A stretch of 24,991 nt of DNA from a virus: the IMG/VR virus record IMGVR_UViG_3300042691_004259, positions 1-24,991 of that record; one strand, written 5' to 3'. Both the position numbers and the translations under genes were made by a program. Below the pieces are notes generated by a model. The model worked only from the letters and a program-made list of their open reading frames with translations. It ran no database searches and was not told where the DNA came from. Below, piece by piece: positions 4,188 through 19,777 of the stretch; position 1 is the stretch's first letter; each line of letters opens with the position of its first letter.

Positions 4188-4903
4188 AGCCCTTCCATTG
4201 AAACTTCATGATGCTTGCCACAAACTGGGCAATTATATTCTACCATATGTGATAATTTCGGTAGCGTCTCAAAGAATGCTTGAACCCTTTTAAACTGTTC
4301 CGAAGATAGATTTTCAATAAAGTCTATCAACTCTTGTTTTGTTTGCTCTTTTGCATGGTACACTTCACTTGAATCGTAGATATAGTCAATGCATTCTAGC
4401 ACAATGCTAAAGACAGATTCGACTTCTTGCTCTACGATGGCATCAATTGATTCTAGTTTCTTTAGAATGTCAATTGACGGATACTTCATAACGATTCCAA
4501 CATCATCAAACAATGGAATTTTATTTGTGTGATTTTCGTTTATCGTTACAGCTAACTTGGTTAAGTCCACGTTAACCTTTACTTTAGCCAACTTATCTTT
4601 TTCGCCGTGGTCTTCATCGCACGACATAATAAGTTCTACGATTTCACCAACTGATCTTGCACGCAGCTGGGTAAAAATGTATTCAAGATCAAAGATAGCT
4701 AGTTTGTCTACTTCAATAGGATCCTTGACGCATGACTTGATTACAGACTTTAGCGTGTCTACCATTACCTTTGAATCTTCACTTTGTTGGGCAATCAGTA
4801 GTGCTTTTTCTTCCCTAACTACAAATGGTCTAAATCTAACATTTTGATTCGTGGAAGGAATTGTAAGGTTGTAAATGGGTGTGTTGTTTAATGGTAATGC
4901 CAT
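4172..4903 (-). CDS. 26: Tail assembly chaperone / baseplate hub assembly protein (gp26-like)
   Basis: This 243-residue protein resembles the T4 gp26-type baseplate hub assembly family (Pfam T4_baseplate as I recall it). The N-terminus carries the F-R-P-F-V-V-R-E-E-K-A-L-L signature at about residues 26-38, followed by a helical domain. The C-terminus has a metal-knuckle-like C-P-V-C-G-K-H-H motif (about residues 223-230) and ends E-S-F-F, whose two Phe codons form the slippery site. Its position immediately upstream of the tape measure gene and its frameshifted extension indicate a chaperone that coats the tape measure before the tube polymerises. The start is fixed by AAGGAG at 4918-4913, nine bases before the ATG and inside the end of the gp16 gene. 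The gp26 versus gp51 label is uncertain. Confidence 0.8.
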   Translation of the reverse strand: MALPLNNTPIYNLTIPSTNQNVRFRPFVVREEKALLIAQQSEDSKVMVDTLKSVIKSCVKDPIEVDKLAIFDLEYIFTQLRARSVGEIVELIMSCDEDHGEKDKLAKVKVNVDLTKLAVTINENHTNKIPLFDDVGIVMKYPSIDILKKLESIDAIVEQEVESVFSIVLECIDYIYDSSEVYHAKEQTKQELIDFIENLSSEQFKRVQAFFETLPKLSHMVEYNCPVCGKHHEVSMEGLESFF

Positions 4904-4907
4904 AATG

Positions 4908-5321
4908 TTATTCTCCTTTAGCCATATTCTTGATCATTTTACTCAATTCAGATGTGCTACCTACAAAGATAGCGTTATTGTTTGTCACATTTTTTGCTGC
5001 TTCTGCCTTTGACGGAGCATCTAGCTTTTGTTTCTGCTGATGTATATCCAACAACTGCTGGTTGACATCAGCTAGTTGCTTCATCAAATTACCAACAACT
5101 TCAAATGCTCTTGGGTGCTCGCTTTGTTTAGCAACATCAAGAGCATAATTAAGAGCTTCTTGCCCCTTTATCAAAAGTTCATGTAGATTAGTTCTGGACT
5201 TATCATAATCAGATTCAATCTTGTCATTAACTTGCAATGATGTAGTTGCATCAATAACTAATGGAACCGTAGTTGTAGGTTCCAAATCAAACACCTCAGA
5301 TAATCTATCATCAATTTTCAT
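4908..5321 (-). CDS. 16: Terminase small subunit gp16
   Basis: This is a homologue of T4 gp16, the small terminase that helps the gp17 motor recognise and cut concatemeric DNA. It has 137 residues against 164 in T4. The central helical hairpin is recognisable: D-Y-D-K-S-R-T-N-L-H, then H-P-R-A-F-E-V-V-G-N-L-M-K-Q-L, then N-Q-Q-L-L-D-I-H, matching T4 D-Y-G-V-V-R-R-N-M-H, S-P-R-H-M-E-V-F-A-T-L-M-G-Q-M and N-R-E-I-L-K-L-H. The C-terminal N-N-A-I-F-V-G-S-T-S-E-L matches T4 N-A-T-V-F-M-G-S-P-T-E-L. It is shorter at both ends. It lies directly after the holin and directly before the tail chaperone. The large terminase gene 17, its usual neighbour, is not in this window. Confidence 0.92.
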   Translation of the reverse strand: MKIDDRLSEVFDLEPTTTVPLVIDATTSLQVNDKIESDYDKSRTNLHELLIKGQEALNYALDVAKQSEHPRAFEVVGNLMKQLADVNQQLLDIHQQKQKLDAPSKAEAAKNVTNNNAIFVGSTSELSKMIKNMAKGE

Positions 5322-5322
5322 G

Positions 5323-5784
5323 TCAATCGTTTCTTGTGTTTCTAACTTGTGGATCTCCAGGATCTAAGTCAAAGGTTGTAGTTGTGGTTTGTCTCATCAT
5401 TGGCATTGGTCTTGGTGCCACTGCAGGAGTATTTAGCCCCATTGGTTGTGGACTTTGCATCGGGCTTCCCATTGGAGAACTAGGCATAGCACCTCCACCA
5501 ACAGCTGCGCCAGCCATCTTTTCTTGTCCGCGAGACCATGCGGCAATACCTAGAACTGCACCCATTGCCAAGTGGAATAATCCAGCACCTTGTAGTGTTA
5601 GTGGATTCCATTGGCTATTTACTTGACCAGAACTTAATGCTTGTAGTAAACTCCATAAAACTGGGAATACTGCCATGTCTAAGATACAGATTACCATGTA
5701 TGTCCAACCCATAGCTGGACGCCACTTTTTAACCATCCAATCTTCTTGGGCGATTTTTAGTTCTTCTTGTTTGTTATTTTCCAT
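5323..5784 (-). CDS. Putative holin (3TM gene-transfer-agent-holin type)
   Basis: This 153-residue membrane protein has a charged N-terminus (about 1-22), hydrophobic segments at about 25-50 (W-T-Y-M-V-I-C-I-L-D-M-A-V-F-P-V-L-W) and about 62-84 (G-L-F-H-L-A-M-G-A-V-L-G-I-A-A-W), and a soluble Pro/Met-rich tail ending in an acidic stretch. The R-P-x-x-x-W-T-Y-M pattern at the first membrane segment matches my recollection of the Holin_3TM family (PF11351), proteins that permeabilise the inner membrane at the end of infection. AAGG lies 9 bases before the ATG. It is not related to the T4 holin t. No endolysin gene lies next to it. Another small membrane protein with a structural role cannot be excluded. 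Confidence 0.65.
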   Translation of the reverse strand: MENNKQEELKIAQEDWMVKKWRPAMGWTYMVICILDMAVFPVLWSLLQALSSGQVNSQWNPLTLQGAGLFHLAMGAVLGIAAWSRGQEKMAGAAVGGGAMPSSPMGSPMQSPQPMGLNTPAVAPRPMPMMRQTTTTTFDLDPGDPQVRNTRND

Positions 5785-9574: not shown

Positions 9575-10876
9575 ATGGCAGAAAATACACAAACATTAAG
9601 TTTTGCAGGTGATGTTACAGTTCAAAAATGTTCTGTTATATCATCTGCTGGAGTAGAGTTCTCTGTTAAAGGACAACTGATAGGTCTACAGATTTTCGAA
9701 GATTTATATTCTCCATTTATTAGTGGTACTGTAATTTTCAGAGATTCCTTAGACTTTGTTAATGCTTTACCATTCGTCGGACAAGAAACTCTCAGCCTTA
9801 TTGTATATACTCCATCATTAGAACGCAATGGTGGAAAAATAGAAGGGCAATTTTATATTCATAAAATGAAGGATCGTGAATATGATGGTGACCGAAGTGT
9901 TGTATATGAAATGTCTTTTATATCCAAAGAATTCTTAAATGATGTAAACGTTAAAATGAGCCGTGGATATCAGGGAAAGGTTTCTGAGATTGCACGAGAG
10001 GTATTGACGGATAAATCTGCAGCATTCGATACTGTTAAGAAATTAAACATTGAAGAGAGTAAAAATAGTATAAAGTATGTTTCTAATTATTGGTCACCTG
10101 TACGAAATATGAATTATCTTGCAGATAGAGCATTGAATAAAACAGGATCTCCTTCTTATGTATTTTTTGAGAATCGCGATGGCTTTAACTTTGGTTCATT
10201 AGACTTATTGATGTCAAGTGATAATAAACCCGTTCAGAAATTTAATTATTCAAATTCAACTCGTAATATCTCTAATTCTGGTTCAGCCAATAGAGACTTC
10301 AATCATGATTATAAAAAGATATCTACATTTTCAGTCACTGATGGCTTTAATACCATGGAACGTTTACGTAATGGTATGATTGCTTCTAGATTGCATTCGT
10401 ATGATTTAACGAGTAAACAAATAGACATCAGAAACTTTGATATATTCAACAACTTCAAAGAAAAGAAACACTTGAACGCATTTCCAACTGTTTCTACTAA
10501 CCTGCCTGCATACTATACATCAAAGATGTTGCTTGTTCCAAAAAGCACTATGCAATTTACAGGGTTTGATGACGTATCCAATATAAAGTTTTTACAAAGA
10601 AGAATATCTGAATTAAATCAAGCGAATGACTTCAAGCTAACTATAACAGTTCCTGGTCGACTGGATTATACTGTTGGTCAAACTGTAGTTATTCAATCTT
10701 TTCAAGTAGAGCCTATTAAAGACAGAGATACGTTATCAGAAATATCAGATAAGATTTTCTCTGGGCGTTATCTGGTCTCGGCAATCAATCACTTTATCAC
10801 ACAAAAGTCTCATGAATGCACAATTGAGCTTATAAAGGATTCATATATTAAAGACGTTTTTAAGGGTGGTAACTAA
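9575..10876 (+). CDS. 27: Baseplate hub subunit gp27-like
   Basis: This 433-residue protein fits the gp27/gpD hub family, which forms the trimeric ring that joins tube and central spike and holds gp5. Its context is decisive: it is encoded between gp53 and gp5 and its stop overlaps the gp5 start (TAATG). Visible features include I-F-E-D-L-Y-S-P-F-I-S-G-T-V-I-F near residues 39-54, a two-layer beta-rich profile, and near the C-terminus V-P-G-R-L-D-Y-T-V-G-Q-T-V and F-S-G-R-Y-L-V-S-A-I-N-H, features typical of gp27-like hub proteins of aquatic T4-like phages. T4 gp27 is 391 residues. Confidence 0.85.
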   Translation: MAENTQTLSFAGDVTVQKCSVISSAGVEFSVKGQLIGLQIFEDLYSPFISGTVIFRDSLDFVNALPFVGQETLSLIVYTPSLERNGGKIEGQFYIHKMKDREYDGDRSVVYEMSFISKEFLNDVNVKMSRGYQGKVSEIAREVLTDKSAAFDTVKKLNIEESKNSIKYVSNYWSPVRNMNYLADRALNKTGSPSYVFFENRDGFNFGSLDLLMSSDNKPVQKFNYSNSTRNISNSGSANRDFNHDYKKISTFSVTDGFNTMERLRNGMIASRLHSYDLTSKQIDIRNFDIFNNFKEKKHLNAFPTVSTNLPAYYTSKMLLVPKSTMQFTGFDDVSNIKFLQRRISELNQANDFKLTITVPGRLDYTVGQTVVIQSFQVEPIKDRDTLSEISDKIFSGRYLVSAINHFITQKSHECTIELIKDSYIKDVFKGGN

Positions 10877-13800
10877 TGTTATATACTGGTGTTGTTGAAA
10901 ATAGAAATGATCCACTGAAACTTGGTCGTTGCCAAGTTAGAGTATTAGGTCTTCACACAGATGATAAAAGTATTCTTCCAACGGAAGATTTACCATGGGC
11001 GCACCCGTTACAACCTATCACTTCTGCTGCCATGAATGGTATTGGGCAATCTCCACTAGGAGTTGTTCCTGGTACTTGGGTTGTGGTTATGTTTAGTGAT
11101 GGAGAAGATCAGCAACAGCCTATCATCTTAGGTTCTCTTGGCGGAATTTACTTAACTAAAAATGCTACAATTGACGGTGGTGGTGGTGATATTGTTGTAG
11201 ATGAAACACCAAGTAATGCAGTTAAAGATAGTTCTGGTAATGTAGTGACTGATGGTAGCGGTAAACCTATCACAACAACACCTAATCCTGAACCACCAAC
11301 TCCATCCAACCAACCAAAACAAGAGCCAGTAACTGCCCAAAACGTAAATAGTAATGATTCTATTCCTACAAAGCCACCTGCAAATTCAGTGGCAAAAGGT
11401 TCTGAAGGTAAAGCAGAACAAGGTATCAAAGCACTAATCGCAGCATGTGATAAAGTAGGTTTATCTACGAGATATGCCAAAGCTGCATTGCTGGGTATTG
11501 CTGGTGGAGAATCTACTTGGATTCCTCAAAAGGAAATGTACAACTATTCTCCAGATAGATTACGTCAGATCTTCAAAAGCGTTACTGATGCTGATGTTGA
11601 AAAATATAGCTACGCTCAACGTAAAGGTATGACCAGAGAAGAATTCTTTAAGTTTTTCTATGGACCAACCTTTAGAGGTAAGGGATTCCTTGGTAATTTA
11701 ACTGATGAAGACGGTGGTAAGTTTTACGGTCGAGGTTTTATTCAGTTGACTGGTCGTGGAAACTATGAGCAATACAAAAAGCTAACTGGTATTGATATTG
11801 TTGGTAATCCAGATTTACTTGATACTGATTTAACAGGCAGTGCTATAATTGCAGCTACCTATCTAACCCGTAGAGTAAACTCTTGGCAGAAATTGATGTA
11901 CGAAGAAGGATTCTATGGCGCTGCTAAGTCTGCTGTTGGATTTAACTCACCAGACATTGCAGCCAAGAAAAAGGCATACTACGAATACTTCATGAATGGA
12001 TTGAAGTCTGTAGACACGACAAATAAAGAGGCATCAGCTGGGGATGAACCACCATCTCAACAAGCCATCGAAGCGGCACCACCAGAAAAGCGTGCTGCAC
12101 TTAAAGAAGATAGATCTCAAAATAAGGTTAAAGGATTTACTGATCCTGATGGAAAGTATCCACTTAGAGACTATGCCAATGAAGCAGATACCAATAGACT
12201 ATCACGTGGTGTTTTAGAAGGCACATGCTTTGAGTTTAAAGACCAAACTTTGATTAAGGACGTGCCATTAGCCAATGGCGGGACTTGGTCACAACCACAA
12301 TCAGCTTACTCAGCAGTTTATCCATACAATAAAGTTATGGAAACTGAGTCTGGTCATATCATGGAGTTTGATGACAGCCCTGCAGCTGAGCGCATTCATA
12401 TGTACCATAGAAAGGGTACGTTCTTTGAGATTGATCCAAATGGTTCTCGTGTCACTCACATAGTAGGTGATGATTACCATATATGCGATCGTAACGGAAA
12501 TATCTACTTTGGTGGTAACGTCAACATAACTGCTGGAACTGGTGCTAAGATATTGGTTCGTGGTGATGCTGAGATACAAGTAGAAGGTAAGACAAATGCA
12601 GTATTTCAAAATGACGTAACTATTGGTGCTGCCAACGATGTTAAAATTGCAGTGGCAAATGACTTGCAAATTAAAGTTGGCGGAGAATTTACATTAGATG
12701 TTGGAAAGAATGCATCTATTTTAACTGCCGCAGATCTAACATTACAGACTGAAGGTGACACGAACATAGTTACTACTGGTGATAACTTATTTGCTTCTGA
12801 AGGAGACACTAATATTGCCGCATCTGGAGACGCTATTGTGTTTGCTGATGGAGATACTGGAATTGGTGCTTCTGGTGACATAACTATCAAAGCTGGTGGA
12901 GATGCTGGATTAGGTGGTGGTGGCAGCGTTGATGTTTCAGCTGGCGGTGTTGTTAGTATTGACGGTTCGTTAGTTGATCTAGGTAATGGAGCATCAGTTG
13001 GAGATGTCGAGAAAGCAGAATCACCAGAAGCAATTGAAGCATTAGAGTTGACTCCACCTGAAAAGGCAGAACCAGGTGGTAGTGCCATGGAAAACTTGGA
13101 ACCGCCTGCGCGAGTTGGACAACCTTCTACAAAGTTTGAAACACCAGATGAATGGAACAGTGAAGAAGGTAAAGCGCAATCAGGTGATATCAGTTCAAAT
13201 CCGCAAGCTGCAAACCCAGCAAATGCTCCATCTTCTAGCGCTAATGAAGAGTTGGCTCAACCAGCGCCAGGCAATAATGTACAGGGTACAGATGTTAATC
13301 GAGAAACTTATAAGAATGCTGACCCTAAAGCGTTCACTAGAGATTATAAACTGTCTAAGAACTTTACAATTGGTCACTTGATGAGTGCTCAAACTATCTT
13401 GCGTGATGCTGAATTGCCACCAGGTAAAGGTGACTCTTTCTCTGGTTATAAGCTGTTTACTCAAGCGGATCTTGTTGCGAACATGGCTGACTTGGCACAG
13501 AACATCTGTGAACCTATCTGGGATATTCTTGGACCACCAGCTGGTGTGCATAGAGTTTCTAGTAAAACTGGTCGTTGGGTTATCACATCAGGTTTGCGTA
13601 ATGCAGGAAACGTTAAACAATCTGGCGATACTTCGGATCATAACAAAGGTCGTGCGTTGGACTTCCAACTTTGGCCAGGTGGTCGTTACCTAGAAACATT
13701 GGATCTGGCAGCTCAGTTAGAAAAGATCTTGCCTTATCATCAAATGATTCTAGAATACAGAGACCCATCCGCATCTAAGGGTGCATGGCAAAACTGGATT

Positions 13801-13923
13801 CACATTGCTTACAAGCAAGGCGGATTGAAACAGGCATTTACGATGTACAACGATAAGACTGTAAATGCGCAAGGAACACCTACTCCTGGAGCACGTGGAT
13901 TCTTCTTATTTGGTCCTAAGTAA
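10876..13923 (+). CDS. 5: Baseplate central spike gp5 with GH19 and M15-peptidase-like domains
   Basis: This 1015-residue protein is a gp5-type spike, needed to pierce the outer membrane and open the wall. Domain order: OB-fold (about 1-92, with V-P-G-T-W-V-V-V-M-F); a Pro/Asn-rich linker to about 178; a GH19 (chitinase/lysozyme-like) domain at about 180-378, with a probable catalytic Glu212 in G-G-E-S-T-W and the family signature G-R-G-F-I-Q-L-T-G-R-G-N-Y at 285-297. The gp5 C-terminal domain begins near 430 (Y-S-A-V-Y-P-Y-N then E-T-E-S-G-H). A beta-helix needle of short Gly-Asp repeats covers about 535-712, followed by a disordered linker. Last is a peptidase M15-like domain with S-D-H-N-K-G-R-A-L-D (His922, Asp929) and W-I-H (His976). 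T4 gp5 (575 aa) has a GH24 lysozyme instead and nothing after the needle. Confidence 0.93.
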   Translation: MLYTGVVENRNDPLKLGRCQVRVLGLHTDDKSILPTEDLPWAHPLQPITSAAMNGIGQSPLGVVPGTWVVVMFSDGEDQQQPIILGSLGGIYLTKNATIDGGGGDIVVDETPSNAVKDSSGNVVTDGSGKPITTTPNPEPPTPSNQPKQEPVTAQNVNSNDSIPTKPPANSVAKGSEGKAEQGIKALIAACDKVGLSTRYAKAALLGIAGGESTWIPQKEMYNYSPDRLRQIFKSVTDADVEKYSYAQRKGMTREEFFKFFYGPTFRGKGFLGNLTDEDGGKFYGRGFIQLTGRGNYEQYKKLTGIDIVGNPDLLDTDLTGSAIIAATYLTRRVNSWQKLMYEEGFYGAAKSAVGFNSPDIAAKKKAYYEYFMNGLKSVDTTNKEASAGDEPPSQQAIEAAPPEKRAALKEDRSQNKVKGFTDPDGKYPLRDYANEADTNRLSRGVLEGTCFEFKDQTLIKDVPLANGGTWSQPQSAYSAVYPYNKVMETESGHIMEFDDSPAAERIHMYHRKGTFFEIDPNGSRVTHIVGDDYHICDRNGNIYFGGNVNITAGTGAKILVRGDAEIQVEGKTNAVFQNDVTIGAANDVKIAVANDLQIKVGGEFTLDVGKNASILTAADLTLQTEGDTNIVTTGDNLFASEGDTNIAASGDAIVFADGDTGIGASGDITIKAGGDAGLGGGGSVDVSAGGVVSIDGSLVDLGNGASVGDVEKAESPEAIEALELTPPEKAEPGGSAMENLEPPARVGQPSTKFETPDEWNSEEGKAQSGDISSNPQAANPANAPSSSANEELAQPAPGNNVQGTDVNRETYKNADPKAFTRDYKLSKNFTIGHLMSAQTILRDAELPPGKGDSFSGYKLFTQADLVANMADLAQNICEPIWDILGPPAGVHRVSSKTGRWVITSGLRNAGNVKQSGDTSDHNKGRALDFQLWPGGRYLETLDLAAQLEKILPYHQMILEYRDPSASKGAWQNWIHIAYKQGGLKQAFTMYNDKTVNAQGTPTPGARGFFLFGPK

Positions 13924-14591
13924 TGACTGAACTTGTATTTAATTCTAGCGTTGATATTTCTGATGGCGATGATATCGAATTACAAGTCCCTGACGTATCT
14001 AGTGGTGGACAAGTCAAAGTAACATACTCAGAACATGTTGGATTTCCAAGTGGAATTCCAGGAGATAGATATCTGACATTTTCTGAAGATGGTCTTTCAT
14101 TGCCAGCTAATCTGATACCATCTGTATATCAGGGAACTACATTTTCTATTAAGATAACATTTAGTGTTTTAGATGAGTTACTATCAACAGAAGAAGTTCC
14201 TGTATACATTTCTCCTACCTTAGTCACATGCACCACAAATACACAAGCCTTTGGTATTATTGCTCAAAGCAGTTCAGTTAGTTCTATGGTTTTGTCTGGA
14301 ACTGCAGTTCGTTTATTTGAAGATGAATTTTATACATACTTAACTAGACCTAATGAAACTGTAACTTTATCTGCGATAAATAATACTGAAGTTGCAGAAT
14401 TCTACTCAGTTGTTAACTATCAAGAACCTGCTTCAAAAGAAACATCTAGAACTTACAGTTTTAACGTTAATTATACAGATTCTTCTGGTATTCCAAAAAC
14501 TGCAACTAAAAATATACAACAGTACTTCTACTGGAACTACGCAATTTCAATGGCTAATTTCTCAGTCGAAGTAGATAAAGGGGTTAAATAA
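13923..14591 (+). CDS. Hypothetical beta-rich protein encoded between spike and PAAR tip
   Basis: I do not recognise this 222-residue protein. It is rich in Thr, Ser, Val and Tyr, with alternating hydrophobic residues that suggest a beta-sandwich. It has one cysteine, no membrane segment and no signal peptide. Residues about 1-35 contain a D-G-D-D-I-E-L-Q-V-P stretch that reads like the edge of a beta domain. Its ATG shares a base with the gp5 stop, and its own stop overlaps the PAAR gene start, so it is translated within the spike cluster. A structural role at or near the central spike, or a chaperone for spike or tip assembly, is inferred from position only. Confidence 0.8.
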   Translation: MTELVFNSSVDISDGDDIELQVPDVSSGGQVKVTYSEHVGFPSGIPGDRYLTFSEDGLSLPANLIPSVYQGTTFSIKITFSVLDELLSTEEVPVYISPTLVTCTTNTQAFGIIAQSSSVSSMVLSGTAVRLFEDEFYTYLTRPNETVTLSAINNTEVAEFYSVVNYQEPASKETSRTYSFNVNYTDSSGIPKTATKNIQQYFYWNYAISMANFSVEVDKGVK

Positions 14592-14905
14592 TGCCAGCAG
14601 TAGCAAGATCTAGTGGTAGTGATAAAGTTATGTCTCCAGACGGTACTGGTAAAAAATGTAGATTTCCTGTTAAAACATCAACAGGTGCACCAGGACAAAG
14701 TAAAGTTCGTGTGCAAGGCATATTTGTTGTAGTTAATGGAGATACTGTAGCACCACATTTGAAATCAGGATGTAGCCCTGATACATCTACTTTGGGTGGT
14801 GGCTCTTCTAAAGTTCATGCTAATGGAAGACCAGTAGCTAGAATTGGCGATAGTTATGGTGATAATATAATAACCTCAGGCAGCACTAAAGTAATGGCAG
14901 CATAA
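14591..14905 (+). CDS. PAAR-motif spike tip protein
   Basis: This 104-residue protein is of the PAAR family, the sharpened cone that caps the gp5 needle (T4 gp5.4). It shows the Gly/Pro-rich turns and metal-binding residues expected: M-P-A-V-A-R-S-S at the start, V-V-V-N-G-D-T-V-A-P-H in the middle, and S-K-V-H-A-N-G-R-P-V-A-R-I-G-D near residues 75-89, ending S-G-S-T-K-V-M-A-A. His57, Cys62 and His77 are candidate metal ligands. The gene overlaps both neighbours by one base and precedes gp25, as is common in contractile-tail loci. Confidence 0.9.
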   Translation: MPAVARSSGSDKVMSPDGTGKKCRFPVKTSTGAPGQSKVRVQGIFVVVNGDTVAPHLKSGCSPDTSTLGGGSSKVHANGRPVARIGDSYGDNIITSGSTKVMAA

Positions 14906-15297: not shown

Positions 15298-17129
15298 TGG
15301 CAGAAACAAATAAAAAGATTAAGGTAGATGAATTAAGCTACGATGGTATAAGAACTAACCTTAAGAGTTTCTTGAGTGCTCAAGAAACATTCAAAGATTA
15401 TAATTTTGACGGTTCTGGTCTTTCTGTTTTGGTTGATCTGTTAGCATATAACACGCATTACAATGCATTATATACTAACATGGCATTGAATGAGATGTTT
15501 TTAGATTCTGCCAGCAAAAGAGAAAGTATTCTATCAATAGCTAAAATGCTAGGATATACTCCACGTTCTGCACGCAGTTCAAAGGCAAATGTTACATTGA
15601 CAGTTTCTGGTTTAGTACTAGATCCGCAATTAGCAACATTGCCAGCAAGAAGTGTATTTACAGCAAACGCAACTGATGGAAGTAGTTATTACTTTTCAAA
15701 TAAAGACGAAATGACTGTACCATTGTCAAATGGTGTTTATACATTTGATAGTTTTGACATTATGGAAGGTATATACCAAACTGAACAATACGTATATCAA
15801 GTCGGTACGAAATTCATCTTAAATAATTCGCCATGTGATACATCTTCATTAGAAGTTTATGTTCACCCATCAATAGCTTCAGCTGAATCTTCTTTATATT
15901 CTCTGGCTGACGATGTTATTGCATTAACACCTGAGAGTAATGTATACTTCATAAAAGAAATTGAGGACGGAAATTACCAAATTGAATTTGGTGATGGTAT
16001 TGTAGGTAAAGCATTAAGTGTTGGTAATTATGTGCGTATTGTTTATAGAACATCTTCTGGTACTGATGCCAATGGTTCCAAGACATTTAAATTAGATGGT
16101 TCACTATTCTCTAATGGTACAGTAACTTTAACTACTAATAGTATTGCTATGGGTGGTGAGGATGCAGAAGAATTACCTAGCATTAAATTTAATGCCCCTC
16201 GTCATTTTTCTACTCAGAATAGAGCAGTTACAGAAACTGATTATAAAAATCTTATCTTTAAGAATTTCGGTAACGTTAAATCTATACAAGTCTGGGGTGG
16301 AGAAGATAATGTACCACAACAGTATGGTAAAGTTTTTATCTCAATCCAACCAAAGACTAAAGATTATCTAAATGACAATGAAAAAGATTTCATCAAGAAT
16401 GTTATACTAAAGCCAAAGTCTATAGTAACAACATTTGCTGAGATTGTAGATCCAATATATTTGAACATTATACTTGAATCAACCGTTTATTATAATCCAA
16501 AATCTACTTCTAAGTCAGCATCTTCTATAAGTGGTTATGTAGCAGAGGTTCTTAATAATTATAGCGAAACTGAGCTGATGAAGTTTGATAGTGTTTTCAG
16601 ACACTCAAAGGTTGTTCGTTTGATAGATTCTGCAGATCAGTCTATACAAAATAACGTAACTAACGTTTCATTATCTAGAGAGCTGTATCCTAAATTTAAT
16701 ATAACAGCGCAATATAAAGTAGATATTGGTAATCCTATTTACTATACTGGTGAAAAAGAATCTGCGTTTGTTTCTACTGGGTTTTATATCCAAGGTAGTG
16801 ACTTAGTTCACTATCTGAAAGACAATGGCGATGGAATAGTTTACATGTATTATATTAGTTCTGGCGAAGAAATTATCGTAAAGTCTAATATAGGTACAGT
16901 TGACTATACCAAAGGCATAGTTTCTATAGAAGGGTTAAATATAATAGCACTTGCTTCAGATAATTTTATGTTTTACTTTAAGCCATCTTCTTATGACGTT
17001 GTTGCGCTAAGAGATCAAGTTATTCGAATTCAACAAAGTGAGACGAAAATTATAACTGTTATCGATCCTATCTCTTCAGGTAGTGCTCGTGGTGGCTCTG
17101 CGTACGTATTTACTCCAAATAGAAAATGA
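15297..17129 (+). CDS. 6: Baseplate wedge subunit gp6
   Basis: This is a homologue of T4 gp6 (660 aa; here 610), the protein that forms the ring of the wedges and holds the baseplate dome together. The N-terminal region L-V-D-L-L-A-Y-N-T-H-Y-N-A-L-Y-T-N-M-A near residues 46-64, followed by D-S-A-S-K-R-E-S-I-L-S-I-A-K and L-G-Y-T-P-R-S, is the family hallmark (related to gpJ/TssF-type wedge proteins). It also has F-G-D-G-I-V-G-K near residue 230 and a T-D-Y-K-N-L-I sequence near 317. The last 4 bases overlap the gp7 start. Confidence 0.93.
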   Translation: MAETNKKIKVDELSYDGIRTNLKSFLSAQETFKDYNFDGSGLSVLVDLLAYNTHYNALYTNMALNEMFLDSASKRESILSIAKMLGYTPRSARSSKANVTLTVSGLVLDPQLATLPARSVFTANATDGSSYYFSNKDEMTVPLSNGVYTFDSFDIMEGIYQTEQYVYQVGTKFILNNSPCDTSSLEVYVHPSIASAESSLYSLADDVIALTPESNVYFIKEIEDGNYQIEFGDGIVGKALSVGNYVRIVYRTSSGTDANGSKTFKLDGSLFSNGTVTLTTNSIAMGGEDAEELPSIKFNAPRHFSTQNRAVTETDYKNLIFKNFGNVKSIQVWGGEDNVPQQYGKVFISIQPKTKDYLNDNEKDFIKNVILKPKSIVTTFAEIVDPIYLNIILESTVYYNPKSTSKSASSISGYVAEVLNNYSETELMKFDSVFRHSKVVRLIDSADQSIQNNVTNVSLSRELYPKFNITAQYKVDIGNPIYYTGEKESAFVSTGFYIQGSDLVHYLKDNGDGIVYMYYISSGEEIIVKSNIGTVDYTKGIVSIEGLNIIALASDNFMFYFKPSSYDVVALRDQVIRIQQSETKIITVIDPISSGSARGGSAYVFTPNRK

Positions 17130-19777
17130 TAAAGAATAAATTATCAGATCTTATCTCTACACAACTCCCTGATCATATCAGGGAGAGTTATCCAACATTT
17201 GTAGAATTCCTTAAAGCATACTATAAGTTTTTAGAAGATGAACAAAAAGTTTATAGAAACTTAGAGAGTATTAGAGATGTTGATGATGATATACATAAAA
17301 GTTTAGATGTTTTTATAGATCGTCTAAAGAAAGAATTCGCAGTCGATTTTCCAGAATTTTCTAAAACTCCTCAGTTTTTAAAAAATACACCACACATTTC
17401 TGTTGCTCATGGAAGTGAAGAATCTTATAAATTTCTTTTTAGACAGATGTTCCAAAAAGAAGTTGATATTCGTTATCCAAGAGAACAACTATTAACTATC
17501 TCAGATTCTAAGTGGGTTCAAGATTTTTCCATTTTCGTCAAGCTAACTTCTGGTGATATAGCATCATTACAGAATAGTACAGTATTCTTAAACACTAAAG
17601 TTAATGGTATTTCAACTAAAAATAGAATCTATGTTAAACGTGTAGAAAGTTCTTTAACATCTGAGTCCATCTATGAATTGTTTATCAATAAAGACGTTTA
17701 TGGTAAAGTATTATTCGGCGATACCATAAATCAAGATGGTGTAGTTGCAAGCGTAGTAAATACTACAACTTCTATAAAAATTAAAAAAGCAGGGTTTGGT
17801 TTTAAAGTTGGTCAAGTTTTTAATATAGAATCAGATGTTGGTACTGGGTTAACTTTCAAAGTGACTGAAGTTACTGCCCTTGGTGGTATAAAAAGCACGC
17901 AGATTATAAATTATGGTATAAATTATAAGTCTACATTTTCCTTTGATTTGCCATCTACGTTTTTTGTAAATGACGTAGTAGAAACTACATTGGGCACACC
18001 AATAAAAATAAATGCATACTCTTCAGTACAACGTTACATAGATTCTGGTATAGTATCAAAACAAAATTACTACACCAGCGATTACAGTACTGATTATGTT
18101 GGTGAAGTTATGACTTCCTTCAATTCGGTCACTGTGGCTGAAGAGATAACAGCAAACTCTGCGCAGTTAGAAGTTGTATTAGGAACTGTGGCAAAGTATC
18201 AAGGATACTACGAAAATTCAACAGGTTTAGTATCATCTCCAGATAGCGTTATTCAAGATAACAATTACTATCAAAAATACTCATATGTACTACGTATAGA
18301 TGAAGCATTATCATCATACAGAGAAACTGTTATTTCTCTGTTGCATCCTATTGGAAGAAAGCTATTTGCTGAGTATGTTGTAGATAATATATTTGAATTG
18401 AACTACGAAGTCGTAGAACCAGTATTTAGAATTTTACTGCCGTTATTTGCAGGTGTTCCTACTGTTGTTAATATGTTGAGTGAGTTGAGTATGGTGATAG
18501 CCAAGCCCATATCTTCAGTTCAATTGGTTGAAGCAGATTCTTTATACTTATTCCAAAAGCCTACTACTACAGTATTAACATCGTTTGATGATCCTACTTT
18601 ACTAGATGTAATATCAGGTGCAGTAAAGGGTTCTGTTAAAACTTACCTATTTGATTCTGCTAAAGGATCTAGCGTTACTCCAGAATCTGATGAATATTGG
18701 TTATTTGAACAATCACTTTCATCATCTACTCCTCCTACTACAGAGATAGTATTTTTAGTAGCAAAGGATTCTCAATCTGAGCAAGTTGTATCTTCTTCTA
18801 GCGTTTACTTATTTGATTCTCCTAAAGAATCTATTTTAAGTACTCCAGGATCTGACGACTATTGGTTGTTTGATTCTGCTAAAGGATCTAGCGTTACTCC
18901 AGAATCTGATGAATATTGGTTATTTGAACAATCACTGAGTTCATCCACTCCTCCTACTACACAGTTAGTGTTTTTAGCAGAAAATGTGCTAGAGTCATCG
19001 CAGAGTTTATCTTCTTCTAACGTTTACTTATTTGATTCTGCTAAAGAATCTATTTTAAGTACTCCAGAATCTGATGAATACTGGTTATTTGATTCTGCTA
19101 AAGAATCTATTTTACCACAGCAATCTTTCTTGTTATCTTATGATATGAGTCAGATTCTTAATACTTCGTTGGCAGATCAATCATTTGTTGCTGCAATTAC
19201 AACAGAACGACCAGCTGAAAGTTTTATAGATACTCCAACATCTCAGATGTCTGCAGAAACTGGAAAATTTTTAGACTCGAGTATATCTAGTCCAACTAGC
19301 GCCATTACAGATATTGTAGTTGGGCTTGGTCCAGATTCTCCTGTTATTATGAGTTCGCCAGCACCAATCTTAGAAACTGGATTAGTTCAAAATTCATCTT
19401 TATTGCCACTGTCATCTACTGCGATAAATAATTCTATTCTGCTGACGACCAATACAGATACCTTTGGTAGCGCAACTACATATGTATTAGAACCATCTTA
19501 TGCTTCTGATATTAGTCTGGCATTTACATTAGAGTTTTTAAGGGGAACACTATTAGAGTCATCAGTTGCAACGACAAGCAGCCCCTCACTAGATTTCGCA
19601 CCACCAATTTTAATATCACCAGTATTTACAACTGATGATGATACGTTGTTGGTCGATAATAGCATTTCTTCTAGCACAATAAATAGTGATAGCGGGAATG
19701 TGTTTTTCAACCAATATAATGATACCTTTAGCTATTTTGCTGATGAAACATACCTTGCAAGAACAAGAACTTTTTAA
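17126..19777 (+). CDS. 7: Baseplate wedge initiator gp7-like, with repeat-bearing C-terminal extension
   Basis: This 883-residue protein occupies the gene 7 position after gp6. The N-terminal L-P-D-H-I-R-E-S-Y-P-T-F-V-E-F-L-K-A-Y-Y (about residues 15-34) is characteristic of the gp7-like wedge proteins of aquatic T4-like phages. The conserved part ends near residue 425 (H-P-I-G-R-K-L-F-A-E-Y). The rest is unlike T4 gp7 (1032 aa): a Ser/Thr/Pro-rich, low-complexity region built on F-D-S-A-K and S-D-E-Y-W-L-F motifs, with an exact 68-base direct repeat and a 73-residue period at about 509-654. A strong ribosome binding site for the next gene lies at its stop codon. The wedge role of the N-terminus is inferred from family and position; the extension has no known function. 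Confidence 0.82.
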   Translation: MIKNKLSDLISTQLPDHIRESYPTFVEFLKAYYKFLEDEQKVYRNLESIRDVDDDIHKSLDVFIDRLKKEFAVDFPEFSKTPQFLKNTPHISVAHGSEESYKFLFRQMFQKEVDIRYPREQLLTISDSKWVQDFSIFVKLTSGDIASLQNSTVFLNTKVNGISTKNRIYVKRVESSLTSESIYELFINKDVYGKVLFGDTINQDGVVASVVNTTTSIKIKKAGFGFKVGQVFNIESDVGTGLTFKVTEVTALGGIKSTQIINYGINYKSTFSFDLPSTFFVNDVVETTLGTPIKINAYSSVQRYIDSGIVSKQNYYTSDYSTDYVGEVMTSFNSVTVAEEITANSAQLEVVLGTVAKYQGYYENSTGLVSSPDSVIQDNNYYQKYSYVLRIDEALSSYRETVISLLHPIGRKLFAEYVVDNIFELNYEVVEPVFRILLPLFAGVPTVVNMLSELSMVIAKPISSVQLVEADSLYLFQKPTTTVLTSFDDPTLLDVISGAVKGSVKTYLFDSAKGSSVTPESDEYWLFEQSLSSSTPPTTEIVFLVAKDSQSEQVVSSSSVYLFDSPKESILSTPGSDDYWLFDSAKGSSVTPESDEYWLFEQSLSSSTPPTTQLVFLAENVLESSQSLSSSNVYLFDSAKESILSTPESDEYWLFDSAKESILPQQSFLLSYDMSQILNTSLADQSFVAAITTERPAESFIDTPTSQMSAETGKFLDSSISSPTSAITDIVVGLGPDSPVIMSSPAPILETGLVQNSSLLPLSSTAINNSILLTTNTDTFGSATTYVLEPSYASDISLAFTLEFLRGTLLESSVATTSSPSLDFAPPILISPVFTTDDDTLLVDNSISSSTINSDSGNVFFNQYNDTFSYFADETYLARTRTF
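18650..19116 (+). repeat. Tandem in-frame repeat, 219-bp period, within gp7
   Basis: Unit 1 is 18650-18868, unit 2 is 18869-19087, and a partial third unit begins at 19088. The first 68 bases of units 1 and 2 (18650-18717 and 18869-18936) are identical. The remainder is similar with substitutions. The period is exactly 73 codons, so the reading frame is kept. Each unit holds two related sub-motifs of the form L-F-D-S-x-K-x-S followed by T-P-x-S-D-x-Y-W-L-F, which indicates an older internal duplication. Confidence 0.92.

Follow-up and report, generated by a model that had tools for sequence, protein, structure and literature searches.

An inner GH19 domain and a predicted M15-like peptidase domain beyond the needle of a T4-type central spike

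Introduction

The closest described counterpart of the protein analyzed here is the central spike gp5 of phage T4 (1k28/5iv5), in which an OB fold, an inner wall glycosidase of the GH24 type and a needle of 8-residue repeats are combined in one chain. The last strand of the T4 needle is bound by a separate PAAR protein, gp5.4 (PMC4576200). The gp5 gene can be split, as reported for Agrobacterium phages Atu_ph04 and phiM9 (PMC6630229). Related spikes of the type VI secretion system (T6SS), the specialized or evolved VgrG proteins, carry an enzyme appended after the needle and may also have a PAAR tip (PMC10433429). One of them, VgrG2b, bears a C-terminal zinc metallopeptidase that showed no hydrolysis of peptidoglycan (PMC6899460). 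Paired glycan and peptide cutters have been described on the trimeric tail hub of a diffocin, the hub-hydrolase CD1368 (PMC10996793). Here we analyze a 25-kb record of an uncultivated virus (IMGVR_UViG_3300042691_004259, 24,991 nucleotides, hereafter the window), whose gp5-type spike holds two putative wall-degrading domains of different kinds.

Spike gene and baseplate locus

The window contains a T4-type baseplate cluster comprising gp48-like and gp53-like genes, a 433-aa protein in the gp27 position (phrog_350), the spike, a 222-aa ORF, a PAAR gene, gp25 and gp6. The nearest cultured relatives of gp6 belong to Pelagibacter, Methylophilales and Synechococcus phages (35–38% identity), several of them in the Kyanoviridae. 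After gp6 lies an 883-aa ORF (17126-19777) whose C-terminal half contains imperfect internal repeats (LFDSAKGSSVTPESDEYWLFEQSLSSSTPPTT). The spike ORF (10876-13923, + strand) has the length, and all of the residues, named in the sequence-only reading that preceded this work. It matches Gp5_OB (PF06714) at E 2e-25, above the Pfam cut-off (90 vs 25 bits), and phrog_430, 'baseplate hub subunit and tail lysozyme', at E 5.7e-104. Three stretches poor in hydrophobic residues separate its folded parts, the first of them following the OB fold.

10876..13923, + strand: gp5-type central spike, 1015 aa (Gp5_OB Pfam match, phrog_430, neighbor genes)
10876..11151, + strand: OB fold, residues 1-92 (PF06714 over residues 30-100; T4 gp5 alignment)
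11152..11409, + strand: flexible linker 1, residues 93-178 (15% hydrophobic, 14% Pro)

Judged by its sequence, namely the Gp5_OB and phrog_430 matches, the alignment with T4 gp5 and the neighboring genes, the protein serves a T4-like myovirus, related to Kyanoviridae, as its central spike. Both the Gp5 OB domain and an 8-residue-repeat needle are present, whereas a GH24 lysozyme 3' of the GF-DP-YP segment, a trait that varies within the T4 gp5 family, is missing; membership of the spike in the family therefore stands, but its possession of the T4 lysozyme position does not. In T6SS VgrG, a toxin-delivering protein encoded at a T6SS locus, one chain unites a gp27-like with a gp5-like part; the window instead encodes the gp27-position protein separately, in the baseplate locus of a phage, and its machine is a tail.

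Inner GH19 domain

The first enzyme-like domain lies between linkers 1 and 2.

11410..12009, + strand: GH19 muramidase-type domain, residues 179-378 (PF00182; model pLDDT 90.8; endolysin fold; profile matches)
11509..11511, + strand: E212, predicted catalytic Glu, within GGES (93/97 non-redundant domains; three of the remaining four are gaps)
11533..11535, + strand: E220, predicted second catalytic Glu (95/97 non-redundant domains)
11728..11766, + strand: GH19 signature GRGFIQLTGRGNY, residues 285-297 (G285, R286, G287, T292 and Y297 each in 96/97)
12010..12123, + strand: flexible linker 2, residues 379-416 (8% hydrophobic)
12133..12162, + strand: GFTDPDGKYP segment, residues 420-429, which is 5' of the lysozyme in T4-type gp5 (alignment, control, 85/85 relatives)

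PF00182 is matched above its curated cut-off (E 8e-8, 32.8 vs 25.5 bits), and 44 of 48 relatives match it at E <= 0.01. A profile of the domain from these 48 relatives retrieved phage GH19 endolysins, including the SPN1S endolysin, at E ~1e-33. Alignment to the SPN1S endolysin places the catalytic Glu pair and the GRG-x-IQLT signature. The predicted model (mean pLDDT 90.8) resembles GH19 endolysins and the T6SS effector TseP, with a Foldseek match to 8p8e at E 1e-6 and TM scores of 0.66–0.70 with 8p8e, 9eoi and 4ok7. On the Pfam cut-off and the endolysin fold of the model, the GH19 assignment of residues 179-378 is secure, and the sequence-only reading of a GH19-type domain with Glu212 and a signature at 285-297 is thereby confirmed.

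The same reading had placed this domain where T4 holds its GH24 lysozyme, a point that has to be corrected. By alignment, T4-like gp5 proteins have the OB fold, then the GF-DP-YP segment and then the lysozyme; in gp5 of Aeromonas phage 25, used as a control, the motif is at 85 and the lysozyme at 168-292. In the window the segment is downstream of GH19, as it is in all 85 unique complete relatives (upstream in none); a strict GF-DP-YP pattern missed 54 of these 85 proteins, and the relaxed pattern matched every one. The position of GH19 before the segment indicates that it entered the spike at another point than the T4-type lysozyme.

Needle, tether and PAAR tip

Beyond the GF-DP-YP segment the chain continues into a needle and a long tether, and the PAAR protein is encoded separately.

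12316..13011, + strand: needle of triple-stranded beta-helix type, residues 481-712 (8-residue periodicity; sub-threshold DUF2345 and Gp5_trimer_C matches)
13012..13329, + strand: flexible tether of 106 residues, 713-818 (12% hydrophobic, 13% Pro)
13923..14591, + strand: 222-aa ORF between spike and PAAR (no Pfam or PHROG match)
14591..14905, + strand: PAAR tip protein, separate gene, 104 aa (phrog_281 E 8e-17; Pfam PAAR E 7e-6, just below cut-off)

When the needle is compared with itself, identities number 52 for a shift of 8 residues and 44 for one of 16, vs ~10–21 for other shifts, and residues 471-631 align with T4-like gp5. A separate PAAR ORF lies within 1.2 kb downstream in 102 of 107 relatives. 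The 222-aa ORF, for which searches of Pfam and PHROG returned no family, is retained only in the nearest relatives (44–81% identity); most others have different-looking ORFs of 149–178 aa in its place, and loci L017, L019 and L041 have none.

A folded enzyme after the needle had been called odd, on the ground that PAAR must cap the needle. The comparison does not bear this out. Seven other needle proteins carry GH19 3' of the needle and no M15 domain, two of them (L203 and L193) with a downstream PAAR ORF; proteins of this layout occur at L208 (2486-4513), L173, L203, L209, L193 and L174. In several cultured phages (PA5oct, Astolliot, vB_PpuM-Aura and Vibrio phage 1.244.A) a homologous M15-like domain is fused to the needle-tip protein itself, being borne by PAAR rather than by the needle chain. 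The coordinates of these fusions are 4338-5360 (L004), 4380-5369 (L005), 4365-5372 (L007) and 4374-5378 (L008), and the PA5oct record carries an ESI-MS/MS note. Both groups make the combination of PAAR with an enzyme beyond the needle an ordinary one, with a parallel in the specialized VgrG and PAAR proteins (PMC10433429). The 106-residue tether could leave the PAAR-bound site sideways, and its length would be compatible with a PAAR cap.

C-terminal M15-like domain

The chain ends in a domain whose assignment draws on predicted fold and residue conservation.

13330..13920, + strand: M15-like (LAS-fold) zinc peptidase-type domain, residues 819-1015 (model pLDDT 94.8, pTM 0.91; best match 1lbu)
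13639..13641, + strand: H922, predicted zinc ligand (74/74)
13660..13662, + strand: D929, predicted zinc ligand (74/74)
13753..13755, + strand: E960, predicted catalytic Glu (74/74)
13801..13803, + strand: H976, predicted zinc ligand (74/74)

Homologues are found in 40 phage records, 37 of them at >=80% coverage. The window domain matches phrog_894, 'endolysin', at E 7e-10, but scores 13.6–14.4 bits against PF08291 (Peptidase_M15_3), below the cut-off of 23.2; the homologous domain of the Astolliot PAAR fusion passes the same model at 24.7 bits. The HMM comparison thus reveals the expected M15 similarity at a level that falls short of the Pfam cut-off, and the domain is filed as M15-like, not as PF08291. 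Searches against sequences of known structure were uninformative: phmmer against the PDB returned only TPR repeats, aligned to query residues 130-173, and the A3 profile gave no sequence-level match (ribosomal L26 and ChiX at E ~0.6–0.9). Foldseek of the model against the PDB found nothing at E < 0.001. VIA-align ranked 1lbu, the Streptomyces albus G zinc DD-peptidase, first (Z 10.3, rmsd 3.4, 131 residues), followed by hedgehog domains, ChiX, LysECD7 and Ply500, with VanY also among the neighbors.

Nine residues (R908, S920, H922, G925, D929, Q956, E960, W974 and H976) are invariant in all 74 covering sequences of a set of 75 non-redundant ones. They include the zinc ligand set of LAS/M15 enzymes, S-x-H-x(6)-D ... 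H, as H922, D929 and H976. Fold match and invariance together bear out the domain proposed past the needle on these three residues. Some M15 enzymes have an acidic residue three positions before the last zinc His; it is absent both in the window, where the residue is N973, and in the family, where the column holds V31, N21, P6 and C5 among non-redundant relatives. Such a residue is not universal in the fold, as the S. albus G enzyme and hedgehog illustrate, and hedgehog proteins have a Glu just upstream instead. E960 may take this place near the metal, a prediction from its invariance, the model being zinc-free. N973 had been offered as a hint of a binding domain; a variable column 973 beside an invariant E960 instead makes a working zinc peptidase likelier than a relic kept for binding. 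Sequence and model thus favor a probable zinc peptidase, with activity as a prediction.

Distribution, pairing and selection

Scans of IMG/VR for the two domains gave at least 414 relatives for the M15-like one and at least 516 for GH19. The fetched loci contain 104 complete ORFs with the order OB–GH19–needle–M15 and 16 further ORFs lacking the OB part, which a separate upstream ORF encodes in 15 of the 16 cases. Because several of the loci overlap on a single contig, unique and clustered counts are preferred: the two-enzyme layout is found in no fewer than 85 unique complete proteins, which form 56 clusters at 90% identity, and also in the cultured phage BUCT-ZZ01. At loci reached through the GH19 scan alone, M15 is the last domain of all 29 complete proteins in which GH19 precedes the needle. 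Between the window and a 95%-identical relative, dN/dS is 0.038 for GH19, 0.038 for M15 and 0.040 for the OB fold; both enzyme-like domains are under strong purifying selection, about equal to that on the OB fold. The number of unique complete proteins and this selection on both domains rule out chance or a frame artefact as the source of the layout.

Where the gene is split, an OB gene of ~224–229 aa precedes a needle–M15 gene carrying GH19, as at L041 (2466-5789); further split loci are L060, L065, L073, L075, L092, L095, L102, L108 and L114. In Methylophilales phage Melnitz (L002, 3965-7008) the OB gene is 346 aa and the second gene has no GH19. At L044 (5995-8444), a record close to L024, the spike gene falls into three overlapping ORFs, either by sequencing error or as a real split.

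Related phage spikes

The Synechococcus phage BUCT-ZZ01 protein (ON615601, 939 aa) has the complete set of OB fold, GH19, GF-DP-YP segment, needle and M15-like domain, although it shares 34% identity with the window spike and its sole annotation is 'baseplate hub subunit'. Caulobacter phage Cr30, Pseudomonas phage pf16 and Melnitz likewise have a homologous M15-like domain after the needle, but the inner enzyme differs: Phage_lysozyme2 in Cr30, none detected in pf16, and in Melnitz apparently a VanY-like peptidase, judged by eye, in the separate OB gene (L002, 3965-5005; SSWHNYASAIDL ... DAGHFY). By sequence, the Melnitz spike genes may thus hold two different M15-like domains. The inner enzyme is CHAP in LIMEstone1, and D479 has none. 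In gp5 of the marine cyanophages S-RIM2, P-SSM3 and ACG-2014f, neither GH19 nor M15 was found. A GH19 match in phage OBP was rejected as a central spike; it resides in a 7.3-kb 'tail fiber/structural lysozyme' gene.

Discussion

Relative to T4 gp5, the window spike keeps the OB fold, an inner wall glycosidase, the 8-residue-repeat needle, the separate PAAR tip and a similar gene neighborhood, and differs in having GH19 for GH24, in its placement 5' of the GF-DP-YP segment and in the additional tethered M15-like domain. The picture first drawn from the sequence, of a gp5 spike whose inner domain is GH19 and whose outer one is M15-like, is supported, by Pfam for GH19 and by fold and conservation for the M15-like part. 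As the whole explanation, we give a probability of roughly 0.7 to a two-enzyme T4-like spike that cuts glycan and peptide on entry. By analogy with T4 gp5 the spike would be a trimer. Every tail would then have three copies of either domain: GH19 next to the OB/needle base, and the M15-like zinc peptidase on a ~106-residue tether from the needle end, still attached in mature virions. The separate PAAR protein would presumably cap the needle. Sheath contraction would drive the spike into the periplasm, where GH19 would cut glycan strands and the M15-like enzyme peptide stems or cross-links, and both cuts together would open a hole for the tube. The diffocin CD1368 pair differs in placing its enzymes, a lytic transglycosylase and NlpC/P60, on the hub, and in its Gram-positive target.

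Three other readings concern the C-terminal domain. It could lack activity or serve for binding, keeping hold of peptidoglycan or some other envelope ligand and leaving the cutting to GH19; N973, in place of the acidic residue of some M15 enzymes, points this way, as does the shared fold of hedgehog proteins, which act mainly as ligands. Yet invariant zinc ligands, R908, Q956 and E960 in 74 diverse sequences, beside a drifting position 973, form the pattern of a catalytic site, and the structure closest in fold is that of an active DD-peptidase; we regard a purely binding role as improbable. Alternatively, the domain might aid in-register folding of the needle and be cleaved off before or during assembly, leaving a mature spike with GH19 only. 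Cleaved-off C-terminal folding domains do occur in phage fibers (PMC4576200), and the gene splits in 16 relatives and Melnitz imply that covalent continuity is not essential everywhere. The splits, however, adjoin the OB or inner-enzyme region, and none separates the needle from M15; conservation extends to the active-site residues, T4 gp5 needs no such domain to fold, and elsewhere the homologous domain sits on PAAR, where needle registration is impossible. These points leave a discarded folding aid unlikely, if a little short of improbable.

Third, the domain could be an active protease directed at an envelope or spike protein. The spike-borne metallopeptidase of VgrG2b showed no peptidoglycan hydrolase activity (PMC6899460), which means that a position past the needle is no proof of a wall substrate. 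The fold neighbors, hedgehog ligands aside, are nonetheless wall peptidases (1lbu, ChiX, LysECD7, Ply500, VanY), and every complete protein with inner GH19 in the GH19 scan also carries the M15-like domain, so this reading is very unlikely. For the preferred two-enzyme spike, the PF08291 score below cut-off, the absent acidic residue and the VgrG2b example together counsel caution about the predicted wall activity of the M15-like domain.

Each part of this spike is of a known kind, and the combination seems to be a widespread, apparently undescribed variant of the T4-type spike. The possibility that the layout was already described in close relatives turned out half true: relatives, cultured BUCT-ZZ01 included, have it, but searches of the open-access literature turned up no account of a T4-type gp5 bearing the two enzymes, which is weak evidence of absence. 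Since BUCT-ZZ01 is cultured, enzyme activity, presence in the virion and tip geometry are directly testable. A review states that jumbo-phage PAAR proteins stand alone (PMC7824862); the PAAR–M15 fusion of jumbo phage PA5oct qualifies that statement.

More broadly, the T4-type spike appears as a modular carrier whose inner enzyme may be GH24, GH19, CHAP, Phage_lysozyme2, apparently a VanY-like peptidase, or none, with room for a second enzyme beyond the needle, attached either to the spike chain or to PAAR. This modularity ties the spikes used for phage entry to the specialized effectors of the VgrG and PAAR kinds. Tentatively, and at somewhat less than even odds, the needle end with PAAR may be a general landing place in phages for interchangeable wall enzymes, as in T6SS VgrG and PAAR proteins, and the inner GH19 and outer M15-like domains of this sizeable clade of uncultivated T4-like phages may be an obligate pair that would cut glycan and peptide together at entry.
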